Shown here: one piece after another, positions 16,726 through 45,621 of the stretch
Layout of the letters: each line of letters starts with the position of its first letter
Numbering within the stretch: position 1 is the stretch's first letter
Assembly (NCBI RefSeq): GCF_003003885.1
Contig: NZ_PVWN01000008.1
Span: 1 to 64,000, forward strand
DNA from: Chlorogloea sp. CCALA 695
Lineage (GTDB): Bacteria; Cyanobacteriota; Cyanobacteriia; Cyanobacteriales; Chroococcidiopsidaceae
DNA: 64,000 nucleotides
Direction: 5' to 3'
Translations under genes and position numbers: made by a program
The notes under the pieces: generated by a model
The model's input: only the letters and a program-made list of their open reading frames with translations
What the model was told of the DNA's origin: nothing
The model's database searches: none

Positions 16726-16831
16726 TATTTAAAGTAATAGTATCTAAAGTAAATAACTATTAATATTTATTTACACAATATTGTAAGCTAGTGTAATTGA
16801 ATACAATGAGTATATTTGCTTATTAAGGGCA

Positions 16832-18517
16832 ATGGCAGAACAATTTCCTTGGCTAACTACAATAATTTTGCTACCTGCAATAGCGGCATTACTAATTCCA
16901 GTATTACCTGACAAAGACGGCAAGCGGGTAAAATGGTATGCAGTAGGAGTAGCGATCGCAGATTTGATTTTGATATGCTATGCCTTTTGGCAGAACTACG
17001 ACCCCAGTAACGCAACTTTCCAACTAGCAGAAAGTTATGCTTGGATACCTCAATTGAAACTTAATTGGGCTGTTTCTGTCGATGGGTTATCAGCACCTTT
17101 AGTTCTTTTAGCCGGATTTGTAACAACCCTAGCGATTTTTTCAGCTTGGCAAGTTGACCGCAGACCCAAACTCTTTTATATGCTGATGTTGCTATTATAT
17201 TCAGCGCAGATTGGAGTTTTTGTTGCTCAAGACTTACTACTGTTTTTTATCATGTGGGAAGTCGAACTCGTTCCGGTTTATCTACTTATTAGTATTTGGG
17301 GTGGTAAAAAGCGTCGTTACGCCGCCACAAAGTTTATTATTTATACTGCCGCAGCTTCTATTTTTATTCTTGTAGCTGCCTTGGGGATGGCATTCTCTGG
17401 GGGTAGCGATGTTACTTTTGATATCGCCCAACTTGCCCTCAAAGATTATCCTCTCGCCTTAGAACTCGTTTTGTACGCAGGATTGATAATTGCTTTTGGT
17501 GTCAAACTGGCGATTTTTCCTATGCACACTTGGCTTCCAGATGCTCACGGGGAAGCCTCTACACCAGTATCAATGGTACTAGCAGGCGTACTCTTAAAAA
17601 TGGGTGGCTATGGATTAATTCGCCTAAATTTAGAACTTCTCCCCGCCGCCCATATTTACTTTGCACCGTTGCTGGCAATTTTAGGTGTAGTTAACATTAT
17701 CTACGGCGCGTTAAACTCCTTTGCCCAGACAAACATGAAACGTCGTCTTGCCTACTCCTCAGTATCTCATATGGGTTTTGTACTGCTGGGTATTGCATCC
17801 TTTACCGATATAGGAATTAACGGTGCGATGCTGCAAATGATTTCTCATGGTTTGATTGCCTCAGTATTATTCTTCCTAGCTGGTGTAACCTACGATCGCA
17901 CTCAAACAATGGTAATGAGTGAAATGTCTGGAATTGGTCAGGTAATGCCCAAGGTGTTTGCACTGTTTACAATTAGTGCTATGGCATCTTTAGCGCTCCC
18001 CGGAATGAGCGGTTTTGCTAGTGAAATCTTGATATTTGTTGGGGTAACAACCAGCGATATCTACAGTTCGACATTCTGCACGGTGACAGTACTTCTTGCT
18101 GCGGTTGGCGTAATTCTCACGCCAATTTATCTATTATCAATGTTGAGACAGGTATTTTACGGAACTGGTGCAGAACTTAACTGTAACCTGGATGATGATC
18201 AAGAACAAAATCAAGAAGATGAAGAATCTTGTTTTGGTACGGATTGCGTTCTTCCCAGTCAAGCGATTTACAGAGATGCAAGTTGGCGCGAACTATCAAT
18301 TGCGGCTAGTTTTATTGTTTTAATTGTTGGTATTGGCTTATATCCTAGATTTACAACGCAGATGTACGATGCAAAAACCGTTGCAGTTAACACTCAAGTT
18401 CGTCAATCCTACACCCAAATAGCTCGAACAAACCCCGGAATCTATGCAAATAGAACATTGGCATTTAAAAGAATCGCTCAAGTAGAAACAGCAGAGGTTT
18501 TAGGGATAGTTAAATAA
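16832..18517 (+). CDS. ndhD: NdhD, NDH-1 proton-pumping subunit (NuoM type)
   Basis: Antiporter-like membrane subunit of the cyanobacterial NDH-1 complex in thylakoids. The core has the conserved [18 protein letters not shown] with the key glutamate, [30 protein letters not shown] with its lysine, and [11 protein letters not shown]. The C-terminus holds a loop rich in D/E and the two cysteines of ESCFGTDC. This loop type is seen in NdhD1/D2 proteins used in respiration and cyclic flow, rather than in the CO2-uptake NdhD3/D4, but the subtype is inferred. Length 561. It stands alone without ndhF. Confidence 0.93.
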
Positions 18518-21150: not shown

Positions 21151-23373
21151 ATGACCGAAGTAAAAGAGGGTGAATGGCAAGTTTCACGAGTTCTATTTAA
21201 ATATTGGCAGCGTACCCCGCCATTTGTCCGATATATCTGGGTGGTAACAATTTATTTGGTTGCTTGGGGGATTCTAGACAGTATAGCTCTAACCTTTGAA
21301 ACCGCACCAGAAATCTCTGTTTGGTCTCCAGCTTCAGCCCTCGATATCGTTCTCATCCTTGCTTTTGGCTGGAAATATAGCTTTGCGCTATTGCTGAGTG
21401 CGTTTATCCATAACCATTTTATTACTGGTCGAAACATTGATTGGGTGGCACTGCTGATCTTGGAATTAATGGTAACGCTAGGGTATGGCGGCGCTTGCGC
21501 TTTCCTATTGTATAAACTGCGAATTAACCCCCGTTTGCGGCAACTGCGGGATGTAACTTGGTTTTTAGCGATCGCCGTTTTAATTGCACCATTAATTGTT
21601 GCGCTGTTACAAGCAGCAACCTTTGCTTACTTTGAGGTTGTACCTTGGTCTAAATATTTAATAAATACCTTGCATTACTGGGCAGGAGATGCAACGGGTA
21701 TTACTATGCTTACGCCGTTTTTATTAGTCTTGCTCCGCAAGTTCCCCTGGATTTGGGCGATCTCCGAAAATGAAGCACCAGCTAGAGAGCATAAAATACT
21801 GCCTGCCTGCCGAAAAATTCCCCTATTTCTGGTAGAAGGTTTAGCTCTAAGCTTAGGGATTTGGGTTGCCTATAGTTCTCGTCCGGGGAATAATTTGGAC
21901 TATACCTATTTTGTGTTTTTACCCTCAATCTGGATTGCTTTAAAGCATGGTTTTGAGCGGGCGACTGGGACGGTCTTGTTTATCAACGTTGCTGTGGCAT
22001 TTTTGGTATGTGCTACCTTTGGTAAATCTAACGTAGTTGCTTTGCAATTTGGCTTGATGGCAATTACGCTGACCTGCTTGCTATTAGGTGGAATAGCAAG
22101 CAATCGCCAGCAAACGGAAAAAGCCTTACGAGATTCTGCCGCACAGTTGAATTACAGCGCTTTCTACGATGTACTGACAAGTTTACCCAATCGCGCCTTA
22201 TTTAGCGATCGCCTAAAACGAGCTTTTGAGCATGGCAAACAAGTCCCTAATACTTTATATGCGGTACTTTTTATTGACTTAAATCAGTTCAAGGTGGTTA
22301 ACGATAGCCTCGGACACACCTTTGGCGATCGCTTACTAATTGCCATTGCCCGTAAACTAGAAACTTGCCTTCGTCCTAGCGATACCATTGCCCGTTTAGG
22401 AGGAGACGAATTTACAATACTACTAGAAAGTCTTACCGATGTCAGCGACACAATTCGCGTTGCCGAACGTATCCAGGCAGCATTAGCTTTACCTTTCGAG
22501 CTTGAAGGACAAGAAGTATTCGCTACTGCTAGTATTGGCATTGCTTTAAGCGTCACAGGATATCTCTTGCCTGATGATATTCTCCGCGATGCGGATATTG
22601 CTATGTATCGTGCCAAGCAATTGAAGACGCGCTACGAGATATTTAATACCGCCATGCACATTAGAGCCGTTGCCCGTTTGCAGATGGAAACAGAACTACG
22701 TCGAGCGGTCGAACGTCAAGAATTTTTGGTTTATTACCAACCCCTCGTCTCCCTAGTAACGGGGAGGCTTTCAGGTTTTGAGGCTTTGGTTCGCTGGCAA
22801 CATCCCCAACACGGTATCCTTGCTCCTGCTAAATTTATAGTCTTAGCCGAAGAAACTGGGCTGCTTAACCCCATTGACCAGTGGGTAATGCGTGAAGCCT
22901 GCCGCCAAATGCAACAATGGCAAGAGCAAATTCCTACTAATCCACCCTTGCTAATTAGTACCAATTTGGGTAACAAATTGTTTTCTCAACCCAATTTGAG
23001 CCAGCAAATTAGCCAAATTTTGACCGATACAAGCCTAGATGCTATTAGCCTTAAGTTGGAGATTACCGAAAACGTTTTAGCAGAAAATGACGAATCAACA
23101 ATTGCCACGCTCTTGCAAATTAAAGCTTTAGGAGGCCAGTTATCTATTGACGACTTTGGTACGGGATATTCATCCTTAAGCCGTTTGCACTGTTTTCCCA
23201 TTGATGAATTGAAGATTGATCGTTCGTTTGTCAGTAAAATAGGCATTAGGAGCAACTTAGAGATTACCGAAACTATTTTGACTCTTGCCCAAAAACTTGG
23301 CATGAGTGCGATCGCCGAAGGAATCGAAACGGCGGAGCAACTAGCCCGTCTTAGAGAACTTAATTGCCCGTAG
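21151..23373 (+). CDS. MASE1-GGDEF-EAL c-di-GMP protein, EAL domain truncated
   Basis: An N-terminal MASE1-type sensor of about eight membrane helices (residues 20-310) is followed by a GGDEF domain with intact RLGGDEF (about 414-420) and an inhibitory-site RxxD five residues before GGDEF. An EAL domain from about 505 follows, with EALVRW, LEITENVL, DDFGTGYSSL, KIDRSFV and AIAEGIETAEQL all present. The ORF ends at TAG 23371-23373 immediately before the last EAL motif (QGYxF), so the conserved glutamine and the end of the barrel are missing. The lost segment is still readable in another frame (23385-23450). Cyclase activity may remain; phosphodiesterase activity is doubtful. Confidence 0.9.
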   Translation: MTEVKEGEWQVSRVLFKYWQRTPPFVRYIWVVTIYLVAWGILDSIALTFETAPEISVWSPASALDIVLILAFGWKYSFALLLSAFIHNHFITGRNIDWVALLILELMVTLGYGGACAFLLYKLRINPRLRQLRDVTWFLAIAVLIAPLIVALLQAATFAYFEVVPWSKYLINTLHYWAGDATGITMLTPFLLVLLRKFPWIWAISENEAPAREHKILPACRKIPLFLVEGLALSLGIWVAYSSRPGNNLDYTYFVFLPSIWIALKHGFERATGTVLFINVAVAFLVCATFGKSNVVALQFGLMAITLTCLLLGGIASNRQQTEKALRDSAAQLNYSAFYDVLTSLPNRALFSDRLKRAFEHGKQVPNTLYAVLFIDLNQFKVVNDSLGHTFGDRLLIAIARKLETCLRPSDTIARLGGDEFTILLESLTDVSDTIRVAERIQAALALPFELEGQEVFATASIGIALSVTGYLLPDDILRDADIAMYRAKQLKTRYEIFNTAMHIRAVARLQMETELRRAVERQEFLVYYQPLVSLVTGRLSGFEALVRWQHPQHGILAPAKFIVLAEETGLLNPIDQWVMREACRQMQQWQEQIPTNPPLLISTNLGNKLFSQPNLSQQISQILTDTSLDAISLKLEITENVLAENDESTIATLLQIKALGGQLSIDDFGTGYSSLSRLHCFPIDELKIDRSFVSKIGIRSNLEITETILTLAQKLGMSAIAEGIETAEQLARLRELNCP

Positions 23374-23388
23374 GGGCAATTAAGTTCT
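23355..23388. repeat. Perfect 15-base inverted repeat at the premature stop
   Basis: AGAACTTAATTGCCC (23355-23369), a four-base loop GTAG and GGGCAATTAAGTTCT (23374-23388). The left arm is ordinary EAL coding sequence (ELNCP). The right arm replaces the codons where family members have Q-G-Y. The stop codon TAG lies in the loop. Confidence 0.93.
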
Positions 23389-23450
23389 TCTCCAAACCAT
23401 TGCCCAGTCAAGCCGCAGAGGAATTAATTATTTCTAAACCGCAGTGGTAA
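23385..23450 (+). pseudogene. Out-of-frame remainder of the EAL domain
   Basis: In the frame one base off, this stretch reads FFSKPLPSQAAEELI and seven more residues, then TAA at 23448-23450, abutting the last base of the convergent era gene. FxSKPL is the sequence that normally follows QGY at the end of EAL domains, so this is the original C-terminus of the upstream gene. Confidence 0.8.
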
Positions 23451-24434
23451 CTATTCTTCAACCCGATAACCTAATTCTGCTAAACGAGTCCGCGATTGCC
23501 GCCATTTAGGTTGAACTTTAACAAATAATTCTAAATGCACTTTGCCAGCAATTAATTTTTGAATTTGCTCCCGTGCCGCGCTACCAATGGCTTTGAGCAT
23601 ACTTCCACCTTTGCCAATTAATATCCCTTTTTGGGAATCGCGTTCAATATTTATAGTGGCGAATACACGAGTAATAGTTGGTTCTTCTTCAACTTTTTCA
23701 ATAGCGATCGCCACAGAGTGCGGCACTTCTTCACGAGTTAAAAGTAAAATCTGTTCGCGGATAAGTTCCCCCATAATAAACCGCTCTGGCTGGTCTGTAA
23801 CTAAATCCGGCGGGTAATAATAAGGGCCAACTTCAAGTTTTTCAATTAACAACTGCTGCAATCCTACTAATCCATCACCTGTTAAAGCCGAAAACTTAAC
23901 CATTTTCCATTGGTTAGCCTCAGTAACTCGAGCATAAGTAGTATCTAACATTTGGGCATCGGCGGCTGGTTGCGTGTCAATTTTATTGATGCCTAAAATA
24001 ACTGGAGTTTTGCTGTGACTGAGGATATCGACAATATAGCGATCGCCTCCTCCAGCTTCCACCGCTCCATCTACCACAAACAACACTACATCAACCGAAT
24101 CAATGGCAATTCTGGCGTTTTGTACTAATACTTCTCCTAATTGATGGTGGGGTTTATGAATTCCTGGCGTATCAACAAAAATTAATTGTGCTTCAGGAGT
24201 AGTTAAAATGCCACGTAAGCGATTGCGCGTTGTTTGGGCAACCGGGGAAGTAATGGCGATTTTTTGCCCGACTAAATAATTCATCAGCGTTGATTTGCCG
24301 ACATTCGGGCGACCAATAATGCCAATAAATCCTGACTTAAAACCCGCAGGTGCTTGGGGAATAGTTGCTATTCCCGATAAGTCTAAAATATTGCTTTGAT
24401 TAGGTATTTGAGAATCGATATTATTTTCTAACAT
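23451..24434 (-). CDS. era: Era GTPase, 16S rRNA/30S maturation
   Basis: Essential-type GTPase that binds the 3' end of 16S rRNA in 30S assembly. G1 GRPNVGKSTLMN, G3 DTPGIHKPHHQLGE and G4 NKID lie in the N-terminal domain. A KH domain ends the protein (ILIGKGGSMLKAIGSAAREQIQ, then LFVKVQPKWR). It has 327 residues from the ATG at 24434. A TTG at 24452 would add six residues; the ATG is preferred. It converges with the GGDEF-EAL gene with no spacer to that gene's ancestral stop. Confidence 0.96.
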   Translation of the reverse strand: MLENNIDSQIPNQSNILDLSGIATIPQAPAGFKSGFIGIIGRPNVGKSTLMNYLVGQKIAITSPVAQTTRNRLRGILTTPEAQLIFVDTPGIHKPHHQLGEVLVQNARIAIDSVDVVLFVVDGAVEAGGGDRYIVDILSHSKTPVILGINKIDTQPAADAQMLDTTYARVTEANQWKMVKFSALTGDGLVGLQQLLIEKLEVGPYYYPPDLVTDQPERFIMGELIREQILLLTREEVPHSVAIAIEKVEEEPTITRVFATINIERDSQKGILIGKGGSMLKAIGSAAREQIQKLIAGKVHLELFVKVQPKWRQSRTRLAELGYRVEE

Positions 24435-24496
24435 AATTTTGTAGCGAGGCAATGATCGGGAAACTAAATAAAAGTTGCAATTTCCTACAATTTGCC

Positions 24497-24580
24497 TATC
24501 TTTCAGTTTAATGTACTGCCGTTAAGTGACGTACTCCACACACTGACCTGAGTACAGATGTGGGCTTCTCAGCGAATCTT
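24497..24580 (-). ncRNA. Likely right end and omega-RNA (reRNA) 3' part of the TnpB element
   Basis: Immediately after the tnpB stop, the minus strand reads GAAGCCCACATC..., then a stem made by CCACA (24536-24540) and TGTGG (24559-24563 on the plus strand), then GGAGTACGTCAC. This layout is characteristic of cyanobacterial IS200/IS605-type right ends, where the tnpB 3' end and the right end form the omega-RNA scaffold. The exact 3' boundary, and so the guide start, cannot be fixed from one copy. Confidence 0.55.
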
Positions 24581-25753
24581 CTATGAAGACATTGACTGAG
24601 CTTTAAGACCGTGCGCCCCACGGTTCCTTATATTTATAGCAGCGTTCAAATCCCTACACAAACTGGTGTGGCATACAGGACAGTTATGCATTCTCTGGGA
24701 TAGCGGCTTTTTAACTTTGTGACCACAGTTAGAACATTCTTGGCTTGTACCATTTGAATTAACAGGTATTACCTTCAAGCCAGCATTTTCGGCTTTGTTT
24801 GAAAGTATTGAAATAAACTGTCCCCATCCGGCATCATTAATACTTTTAGCCAATCTTGTTTTAGCAAGTCCCTTGATATTCAACTTTTCAACAGCTACGA
24901 TATCGTACTTATCAAGCACTGTTTTAGCTATTTTAAAGTGAAAATCTTTTCTAGTATCACCAACCTTTTTATGCCTGATTCCCAATTGTTTAATTGCTTT
25001 CTTGCGACGGTTAGAACCTTTTTTACGACGTGATACTTTACGTTGTGCTGACTTTAATTTTCGTTCAGCTTTACGTAGATACTTTGGCGCAGCAATTCGG
25101 GTATTGTCAGAAGCAACATAAAAATCTATTAAACCTACATCAATACCAACAATATTATCAGCGTCAAAATTAGGATTAATAGTTGTAACTGCCTTATCAT
25201 CAAGACTTAGAGTCACATAGTAACCATCGGCTTTTTTAGTGACAGAGGCAGTCTTGATATCAAAACCGTCAGGTATTTGACGATGAACAATAACTTTTAT
25301 ATCACCTATTTTTGATAATATAATTTTGTTACCGACAAACTGATGAAGTTTGAATTGTGGGTAAGTGAACGTTTTGTATCGTCCTTTAGCTTTAAATCTC
25401 GGTCTACCAGATTTTTTGCCGTTAACATCACCTTTTAACCATCGATCAAAAGTTATCTCAACCTTTTTAGGGACTTCCTGCAAGACTTGAGAATGGATGT
25501 TTTTGTACCAAGGTCTATTTATTTTTAAATGAGTTAATGATGCCTTTTGCTTGTAGTAGTTTGGTTGTTCTTTTAACTCTGGCAAGTAGCAAATCAAAGG
25601 GTATCTATCAATAGGGCAACGATTCATTTCATACCAGTCAACCCTTTGAGCAAGCAAATAATTATATTGGTAACGCAACATTTCAAGTGTGTTATCAATT
25701 TTCTCAGCTTGTTCTTTGTTTGGTTTGATTTTGTATTGGTATGAAATTCGCAT
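24581..25753 (-). CDS. tnpB: TnpB (IS200/IS605 OrfB) RNA-guided endonuclease
   Basis: RNA-guided nuclease of IS605/IS1341-type elements, relative of Cas12. The split RuvC triad looks intact: Asp in GIDVG, Glu in VAVEKLNIKGL and Asp in CRDLNAA (residues 205, 289 and 368 counted from the ATG at 25753). The zinc ribbon has CSNCG and CPVC. An N-terminal OrfB helix-turn-helix domain is present. A GTG at 25762 is possible, but AGAAGG is better spaced for the ATG. No TnpA (Y1 transposase) is nearby, so the element would depend on help in trans for movement. A small divergent ribbon-helix-helix-like ORF lies 57 bases upstream. Confidence 0.94.
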   Translation of the reverse strand: MRISYQYKIKPNKEQAEKIDNTLEMLRYQYNYLLAQRVDWYEMNRCPIDRYPLICYLPELKEQPNYYKQKASLTHLKINRPWYKNIHSQVLQEVPKKVEITFDRWLKGDVNGKKSGRPRFKAKGRYKTFTYPQFKLHQFVGNKIILSKIGDIKVIVHRQIPDGFDIKTASVTKKADGYYVTLSLDDKAVTTINPNFDADNIVGIDVGLIDFYVASDNTRIAAPKYLRKAERKLKSAQRKVSRRKKGSNRRKKAIKQLGIRHKKVGDTRKDFHFKIAKTVLDKYDIVAVEKLNIKGLAKTRLAKSINDAGWGQFISILSNKAENAGLKVIPVNSNGTSQECSNCGHKVKKPLSQRMHNCPVCHTSLCRDLNAAINIRNRGAHGLKAQSMSS

Positions 25754-25810
25754 TTGTTTCACCTTCTTCTAGGAAAATGATAACATAAAGTAACGCCAGT
25801 GGGGGACAGA

Positions 25811-25954
25811 ATGAAAATAAAAAGGTTAAACGTTAGACTTTCTGATAGGAGATATTACAAGCTTCAGGCTTGTGCTGCTACTACGGATAAAACTATTACA
25901 CAGTTGCTTGAAGATTGGATAGATAGCTTACCAGTGGAAAAGAAAATAAAATAA
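25811..25954 (+). CDS. Small ribbon-helix-helix-like protein, divergent from tnpB
   Basis: 47 residues from the ATG at 25811 to TAA at 25952-25954: MKIKRLNVRLSDRRYYKL, then QACAATTDKTITQLLEDWID, ending in a basic tail. The opening beta strand (RLNVRLSD), followed by two helices with the D-K-T-I-T-Q-L-L pattern, fits the MetJ/CopG fold of small DNA-binding regulators. It shares the upstream region with tnpB, so it may control tnpB or be an antitoxin-like passenger. It is too short for most gene finders. The assignment is by pattern only. Confidence 0.62.
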   Translation: MKIKRLNVRLSDRRYYKLQACAATTDKTITQLLEDWIDSLPVEKKIK

Positions 25955-26042
25955 ATATTTTGGGAAAAACTCAACTATTACCTTTATTTGTTCATGCTAT
26001 GCATAAAAACAATAAAGCCAATGCTTCGTTTTTCCCGCGCAT

Positions 26043-26126
26043 TCATCCCGCGCTCCTAAGAGTGAGCCGTAGGGCTTCTGCTGTTTCAGCTAATAGTACA
26101 TCAGTTAAGATGGCTCGTGGGTTAGT
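26043..26126 (-). pseudogene. Relic of a second tnpB 3' end
   Basis: The minus strand encodes ...TDVLLAETAEALRLTLRSAG followed by TGA (26043-26045), preceded within eight codons by an in-frame TAA. This resembles the C-terminal tail of many cyanobacterial TnpB proteins (..LAE..EALRLTLRSAG). It differs from the tail of the intact tnpB nearby, so it derives from another element. The overlapping sequence would be the remnant of that element's guide-RNA scaffold. Confidence 0.55.
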
Positions 26127-45572: not shown

Positions 45573-45621
45573 AATTTATTACTGAACCAAGAAAAATAAT
45601 TTGTTGGTTCAGTAATAAATT
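45573..45621. repeat. Perfect 18-base inverted repeat upstream of gmd
   Basis: AATTTATTACTGAACCAA (45573-45590) and TTGGTTCAGTAATAAATT (45604-45621) are exact complements around a 13-base spacer. It lies 123 bases after the sugar transferase stop and 129 bases before gmd. It might be a terminator, a leader structure or a small mobile-element end pair. Confidence 0.9.

Follow-up and report, generated by a model that had tools for sequence, protein, structure and literature searches.

A single template switch onto the other strand as the probable cause of a truncated MASE1-GGDEF-EAL gene in a cyanobacterium

Short four-point template-switch events have reportedly been described in primates by Loytynoja and Goldman with pair hidden Markov models. 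E. coli thyA and rpsL and phage T4 rII serve as laboratory mutation systems. In these three, loss-of-function mutations have been attributed to template switching, according to Abraham and Hazkani-Covo (2021, PMC8604942). That paper also describes an intermolecular template switch in yeast REG2, where a repeat with a 5-bp arm and a 5-bp spacer was turned into a perfect 16-bp one whose spacer is inverted, and where one event in coding DNA produced seven point changes and five amino-acid replacements. None of the top-listed open-licence PMC papers on such events named a cyanobacterial case. Here we describe a MASE1-GGDEF-EAL gene that ends early at a perfect inverted repeat within a 64-kb stretch of cyanobacterial DNA (the window), and we conclude, with a probability of roughly 0.85, that a single template switch onto the other strand explains its truncation.

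The truncated gene and the inverted repeat at its stop

The gene, its domains and the features around its 3′ end are as follows, in window coordinates:

21151 to 23373, plus strand: truncated MASE1-GGDEF-EAL gene, 740 codons, protein ending ...LRELNCP*, domains from Pfam
Residues 31 to 319 of the gene product: MASE1 (Pfam)
22159 to 22626, plus strand, residues 337 to 492: GGDEF domain (Pfam), with GGDEF at residue 417, RPSD (the RxxD motif) at residue 408 and an unusual N at residue 378
22693 to 23367, plus strand, residues 515 to 739: EAL domain without its C-terminal end (Pfam, profile positions 3 to 225 of 236)
23355 to 23369, plus strand: left arm of the perfect inverted repeat, ancestral coding sequence except for its last bases
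23370 to 23373, plus strand: loop GTAG, the inverse of the CTAC found in both relatives, with the TAG stop at 23371 to 23373
23374 to 23388, plus strand: right arm of the perfect inverted repeat, reverse complement of the left arm, probably newly copied
23364 to 23388 at most (25 nt) and 23368 to 23384 at least (17 nt), plus strand: stretch that the template switch probably wrote, with TTGC and TTCT microhomologies at its limits
23385 to 23450, plus strand: old C-terminus FFSKPLPSQAAEELIISKPQW and TAA, now out of frame
23451 to 24452, minus strand: convergent, presumably era-like ORF, a synteny marker

The old C-terminus FFSKPLPSQAAEELIISKPQW occupies 21 codons (23385 to 23447) in a frame that is still open, and its TAA at 23448 to 23450 directly adjoins the stop of the opposite-strand ORF at 23451, which we take to be era-like from a motif and from its label in a preliminary description of this DNA. 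That description had noted that one base is missing and that the sequence resumes in the shifted frame and ends flush with era; the missing base is seen against both of the relatives introduced below. The truncated protein has 16 matches in the genome, itself counted. The MASE1 part of the gene (21151 to 22130) differs from the relative G003 by 18%, and the GGDEF and EAL parts by only 6 to 8%; the faster MASE1 divergence may reflect recombination or a rapidly evolving sensor. Beyond the era-like ORF, the stretch from 24526 to 26089, with an ORF at 24581 to 25762 that we presume to be TnpB-like, is absent from the relative G005, where the flanks at 24525 and 26090 lie 16 bases apart; it is probably a recent insertion in the lineage of the window.

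The arms of the repeat are complementary at 15 of 15 positions around the 4-base loop GTAG, and the stop lies inside that loop, exactly as the preliminary description had it. When inverted-repeat pairs of at least 13 bp with arms within 40 bases were counted over the whole window, this was the only one of the 5 pairs listed that was 100% complementary. Another of the window's inverted repeats, at 45573 to 45621, is 22 bp long with one mismatch, an unbroken 18-bp core and 5 bases between its arms, and given this core the 15-bp repeat is not the longest perfect match in the window. By base composition, with a loop of 0 to 10 bases, such a repeat would be expected about 0.001 times per 64 kb and 0.08 times per 5.2 Mb; because real genomes have more repeats than base composition predicts, our case rests on the relatives.

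No second genomic place was found for the 30-base palindrome core (at most 3 mismatches) or for the 16-base core (at most 1 mismatch), and this single occurrence rules out a mobile palindrome or REP-like element. Folded as RNA, the sequence gives a strong hairpin (−29.6 kcal/mol over 101 nt, z −4.26). A role as a transcription terminator was rejected, as no T-run follows the hairpin and a scan of 23000 to 24000 gave no terminator-like site. Rescue by read-through was also rejected, since on reading the sequence the frame beyond the TAG does not reach the old C-terminus.

Ancestral sequence and reverse-complement copying

Five same-genus (Aliterella) relatives were compared, and the tail of the gene is assembled in two of them, G003 and A. 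atlantica CENA595 (G002, gene on NZ_JYON01000020.1), whose proteins are 80% and 78% identical to that of the window gene, respectively. Both read ...LNCAYGQGY(F/Y)FS(R/Q)PLPSQAA... to a normal end, and in both a short imperfect inverted repeat, TTGC...GCAA, flanks a loop that is CTAC, as opposed to GTAG in the window; one base present in both is missing here from the window. The preliminary description had named an alignment with orthologues as the test of its reading, and the imperfect palindrome and intact QGY-F that it anticipated are present in G003 and A. atlantica alike. On this evidence, the truncation appears to be derived in the lineage of the window. G001 gives a match only up to residue 436, close to where a contig ends, and in G005, the closest genome (95 to 96% identical nearby), the contig ends within the era-like gene, about 0.3 kb before the site. 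In G004 (L063, 2542 to 3462) a different ORF, presumably glycosyltransferase-like, stands beside era in place of the GGDEF-EAL gene. G003, a draft genome that is 88% complete, carries −1 and +1 changes about 160 bases apart inside EAL (L002, part aligned to window positions 22788 to 22950). Part of EAL is thereby read in a shifted frame that contains stops; the pair may be an independent break of EAL, if real, or equally an error of the draft assembly.

Within the repeat, the window and G003 differ in seven columns (six substitutions and one missing base), and a single reverse-complement copy of adjacent sequence accounts for six of the seven. In a free alignment over 121 window bases, such a copy reduced the edits from 12 to 6, compared with 9 for a reversed-only and 10 for a complemented-only copy. 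Under a strict four-point model over 44 nt, the reverse complement left 3 mismatches, one in the copied block and two outside, and for the same region the controls left 8 (reversed-only), 7 (complemented-only) and 7 (direct copies). Across the copied 25 nt the differences fell from 7 to 1. There are 25 equivalent solutions for the switch points, and this ambiguity is confined to the TTGC and TTCT microhomologies. One arm substitution is left over by the switch if GCC of the relatives is taken as ancestral; it was either already in the ancestor or acquired later.

Compared with G003, the changed codons are GCC TAC before CAA and GGA TAC after it. The right arm had been said to overwrite the codons for Q-G-Y; GGA TAC (Gly-Tyr) has indeed changed, and the CAA letters for Gln survive. 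Similarly, the left arm had been described as normal coding sequence, which holds for the ancestral coding sequence that makes up most of it and fails for its last bases. The TAG stop is owed to the loop, which was inverted from CTAC to GTAG, and not to the right arm. When a snap-back product was computed from G003, its loop was unchanged and it differed from the window only in or beside the loop. The inverted loop goes beyond plain completion of a hairpin arm; it argues that the other strand served as template, as in yeast REG2, or that snap-back was followed by a later loop flip. A template switch had been proposed in the preliminary description, and the reverse-complement copy, which beats its controls, bears this out, with the mechanism refined to copying of the other strand.

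Clusters of differences are in themselves common at 85% identity, with 813 isolated clusters in 268,981 alignment columns. Across 32,587 aligned bases of the window and G003, the repeat was the top reverse-complement match, with a gain of 6, compared with a best gain of 4 for reversed-only copies and no match for complemented-only copies. A wider brute-force scan covered 926 kb of G000 and 1.22 Mb of G003 (parts of both genomes; 267,069 aligned bases, mean identity 85%) with a criterion of runs of at least 14 bases with one mismatch, and it was run on non-overlapping BLAST segments of at least 500 bases and at least 80% identity. Loci with a gain of at least 5 numbered 5 for reverse-complement, 2 for reversed-only and 0 for complemented-only copies; the corresponding counts were 7, 5 and 0 at a gain of at least 4 and 13, 7 and 3 at a gain of at least 3, the contrast with the controls narrowing as the threshold drops. 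Two matches in the 267 kb, L154 and L115, outscore the repeat with a gain of 9 each. We treat both as unreliable, since the alignment around them is repetitive or rich in gaps and the reversed control scores at these places too (8 and 7, respectively). Three of the loci with a gain of at least 5 were counted as apparently credible, one of them (L129) imperfect. An earlier, looser sliding scan with free jumps was dominated by indels and gave no separation, with a top gain of 9 against 10 and 9 for the controls.

The other two credible loci are spacer inversions elsewhere in this genome pair. At 16805 to 16824 of the window, an exact 20-bp inversion relative to G003 is intergenic and lies just upstream of an ORF at 16832. 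At L129:12476, there is an imperfect spacer inversion relative to G003, with a hairpin and then a T-run.

Origin of the truncated end

We propose that the MASE1-GGDEF-EAL gene was intact in the ancestor, where a short quasi-palindrome spanned the codons N-C-A-Y-G-Q. After copying ...TTGC, the growing strand would have paired with GCAA of the complementary copy, and synthesis would then have run backwards across loop and left arm, over about 17 to 25 nt, before returning to its own template at the TTCT microhomology. Such a detour would invert the loop from CTAC to GTAG and convert the Tyr codon to TAG, and it would replace the codons for Gly and Tyr by the left arm copied backwards, with the loss of one base. 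The product would be a near-perfect palindrome, in which one more substitution, earlier or later, would perfect the 15-bp arms. We infer that replication was the occasion and that one event, not two, was involved.

The same end could be reached by two steps, in which intra-strand snap-back completes the right arm with CTAC kept and a loop flip then gives GTAG. The computed snap-back product, departing from the window solely in or beside the loop, is what this route would leave before the flip, and recurrent flipping of spacers between perfect arms is reported for yeast (PMC8604942). However, snap-back by itself leaves three more changes in or beside the loop, and two events are invoked where a single one is enough, so we regard this route as decidedly unlikely. 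Independent point changes that clustered by chance in a gene free of selection would have the frequency of equally dense clusters at 85% identity in their favor, yet a 25-nt reverse complement with one mismatch is not expected from independent changes and a perfect repeat is expected only about 0.001 times in the window by base composition. The remaining EAL sequence is also not degenerate (dN/dS 0.106 against G003), and we find this explanation scarcely credible.

Strand-displacement amplification is able to make inverted chimeras, and a fold-back or chimeric read introduced during assembly, amplification or library construction could in principle imitate the pattern. Against such an artefact, the stretch departs from and rejoins normal sequence cleanly within 25 nt, the alignment with G003 continues unbroken for more than 1 kb downstream, and these two genomes differ by other spacer inversions as well; we consider an artefact highly improbable. 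A single template switch onto the other strand is the reading we retain.

Consequences for the protein and comparison with known systems

The catalytic motifs of EAL domains have recognized roles, and in the window protein they are present as far as AEGIE (EAL, the N of TNLG, ITEN, DDFG, LKID and AEGIE). Part of these roles is set out in PMC7911125. QGY-F and everything after it are absent from the window protein. Beyond the point at which the window protein ends, 50 of 50 homologues have QG and 48 of 50 have QG[YFH], the 50 being 52 rows minus a duplicate A. atlantica record and one row that ends earlier. RocR (3sy8) residue 368 aligns to residue 231 of the EAL query, which by counting places the lost glutamine at RocR 372, presumably a conserved active-site residue. 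Neither the top-listed papers on the subject nor passages of PMC12900916 and PMC7911125 gave an account of the role of the QGY glutamine. When the intact domain of A. atlantica was modelled with AlphaFold, a strand (238 to 240) and a helix (246 to 255) lay past the truncation point, and on this model EAL of the window protein is missing its final strand and helix. Mean confidence was higher for the truncated than for the intact domain (pLDDT 81.3 and 76.1, respectively), although pLDDT is no measure of stability. Because QG is universal in these homologues and the strand and helix lie beyond the truncation in the model, loss of c-di-GMP phosphodiesterase activity is predicted and likely.

The EAL sequence before the repeat has a dN/dS of 0.106 between the window and G003, and the window branch, polarised by G002, carries 13 synonymous and 6 nonsynonymous changes, suggesting that EAL was constrained along much of this branch. 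Given this past purifying selection and a 21-codon tail still open in the shifted frame, the truncation looks recent. For GGDEF, dN/dS is 0.319 against G003 (17 nonsynonymous and 15 synonymous differences) and 0.083 between the window and G002. The excess lies mostly on the G003 branch (7 synonymous and 12 nonsynonymous changes), with 6 and 5, respectively, on the window branch. The window protein carries D378N (DLD to DLN) at a site that is D in 47 of 48 homologues and also in G001, G002 and G003, and A. atlantica has its own change, D482N, at an invariant GGDEF site. At the 123 columns that are at least 90% conserved among 48 homologues, the window departs in 4 (one of them N378), A. atlantica in 3 and G003 in 17, the last mostly within its frameshifted stretch.

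The preliminary description had suggested that a bifunctional protein was turned into a cyclase. The GGDEF and RxxD motifs are intact, as it had stated, and G003, the closest orthologue with EAL sequence, also has a broken EAL (the −1/+1 frameshift pair), which would be in keeping with selection for a dedicated diguanylate cyclase. However, the frameshifts in G003 may be draft errors, and D378N falls at a near-invariant GGDEF site, though A. atlantica departs at such a site too. Against G003, GGDEF is not more constrained than EAL (dN/dS 0.319 and 0.106, respectively), though its excess falls mostly on the G003 branch. With 16 matches to the protein in the genome, itself counted, loss without selection is also plausible. 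We regard a selected truncation as unlikely; special selection as a cyclase is neither supported nor disproved by these comparisons, and the suggested conversion stands unsupported.

It is conceivable, at very low odds in our estimate, that the locus is a reversible, replication-driven switch, in which loop orientation within the perfect 15-bp repeat sets TAG or TAC. This reading draws on yeast, where perfect repeats flip their spacers repeatedly (PMC8604942). If true, the gene would have its stop one way and a slightly longer alternative C-terminus the other way, and a population would be mixed in a c-di-GMP enzyme. As an instance of a single template switch, the locus would show in a natural bacterium how one short switch covers six of seven clustered differences, a frameshift and a stop among them, with the ancestral state fixed by relatives and the other strand indicated by the loop inversion. 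Such events are easily mistaken for decay or for many separate substitutions. The further spacer inversions between these two genomes suggest that cyanobacterial genomes could be used to count the process.

The primate four-point events reportedly follow the same course of leaving the template, copying nearby reverse complement and returning, although they were found in eukaryotic genomes and with pair hidden Markov models, as opposed to the brute-force scan used here. E. coli thyA and rpsL and phage T4 rII share with the window repeat-guided switching in coding genes and loss of function, whereas the window represents a natural lineage and includes a loop inversion. Yeast REG2 is like the window in that a short imperfect repeat became a perfect repeat with an inverted spacer, in nearly the same geometry; unlike REG2, the window lost a base, gained a stop, lost the end of a domain and is cyanobacterial. 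The class of mutation is therefore already known, and the window is a very clean natural example, new in that a cyanobacterial gene has acquired both a frameshift and a stop.
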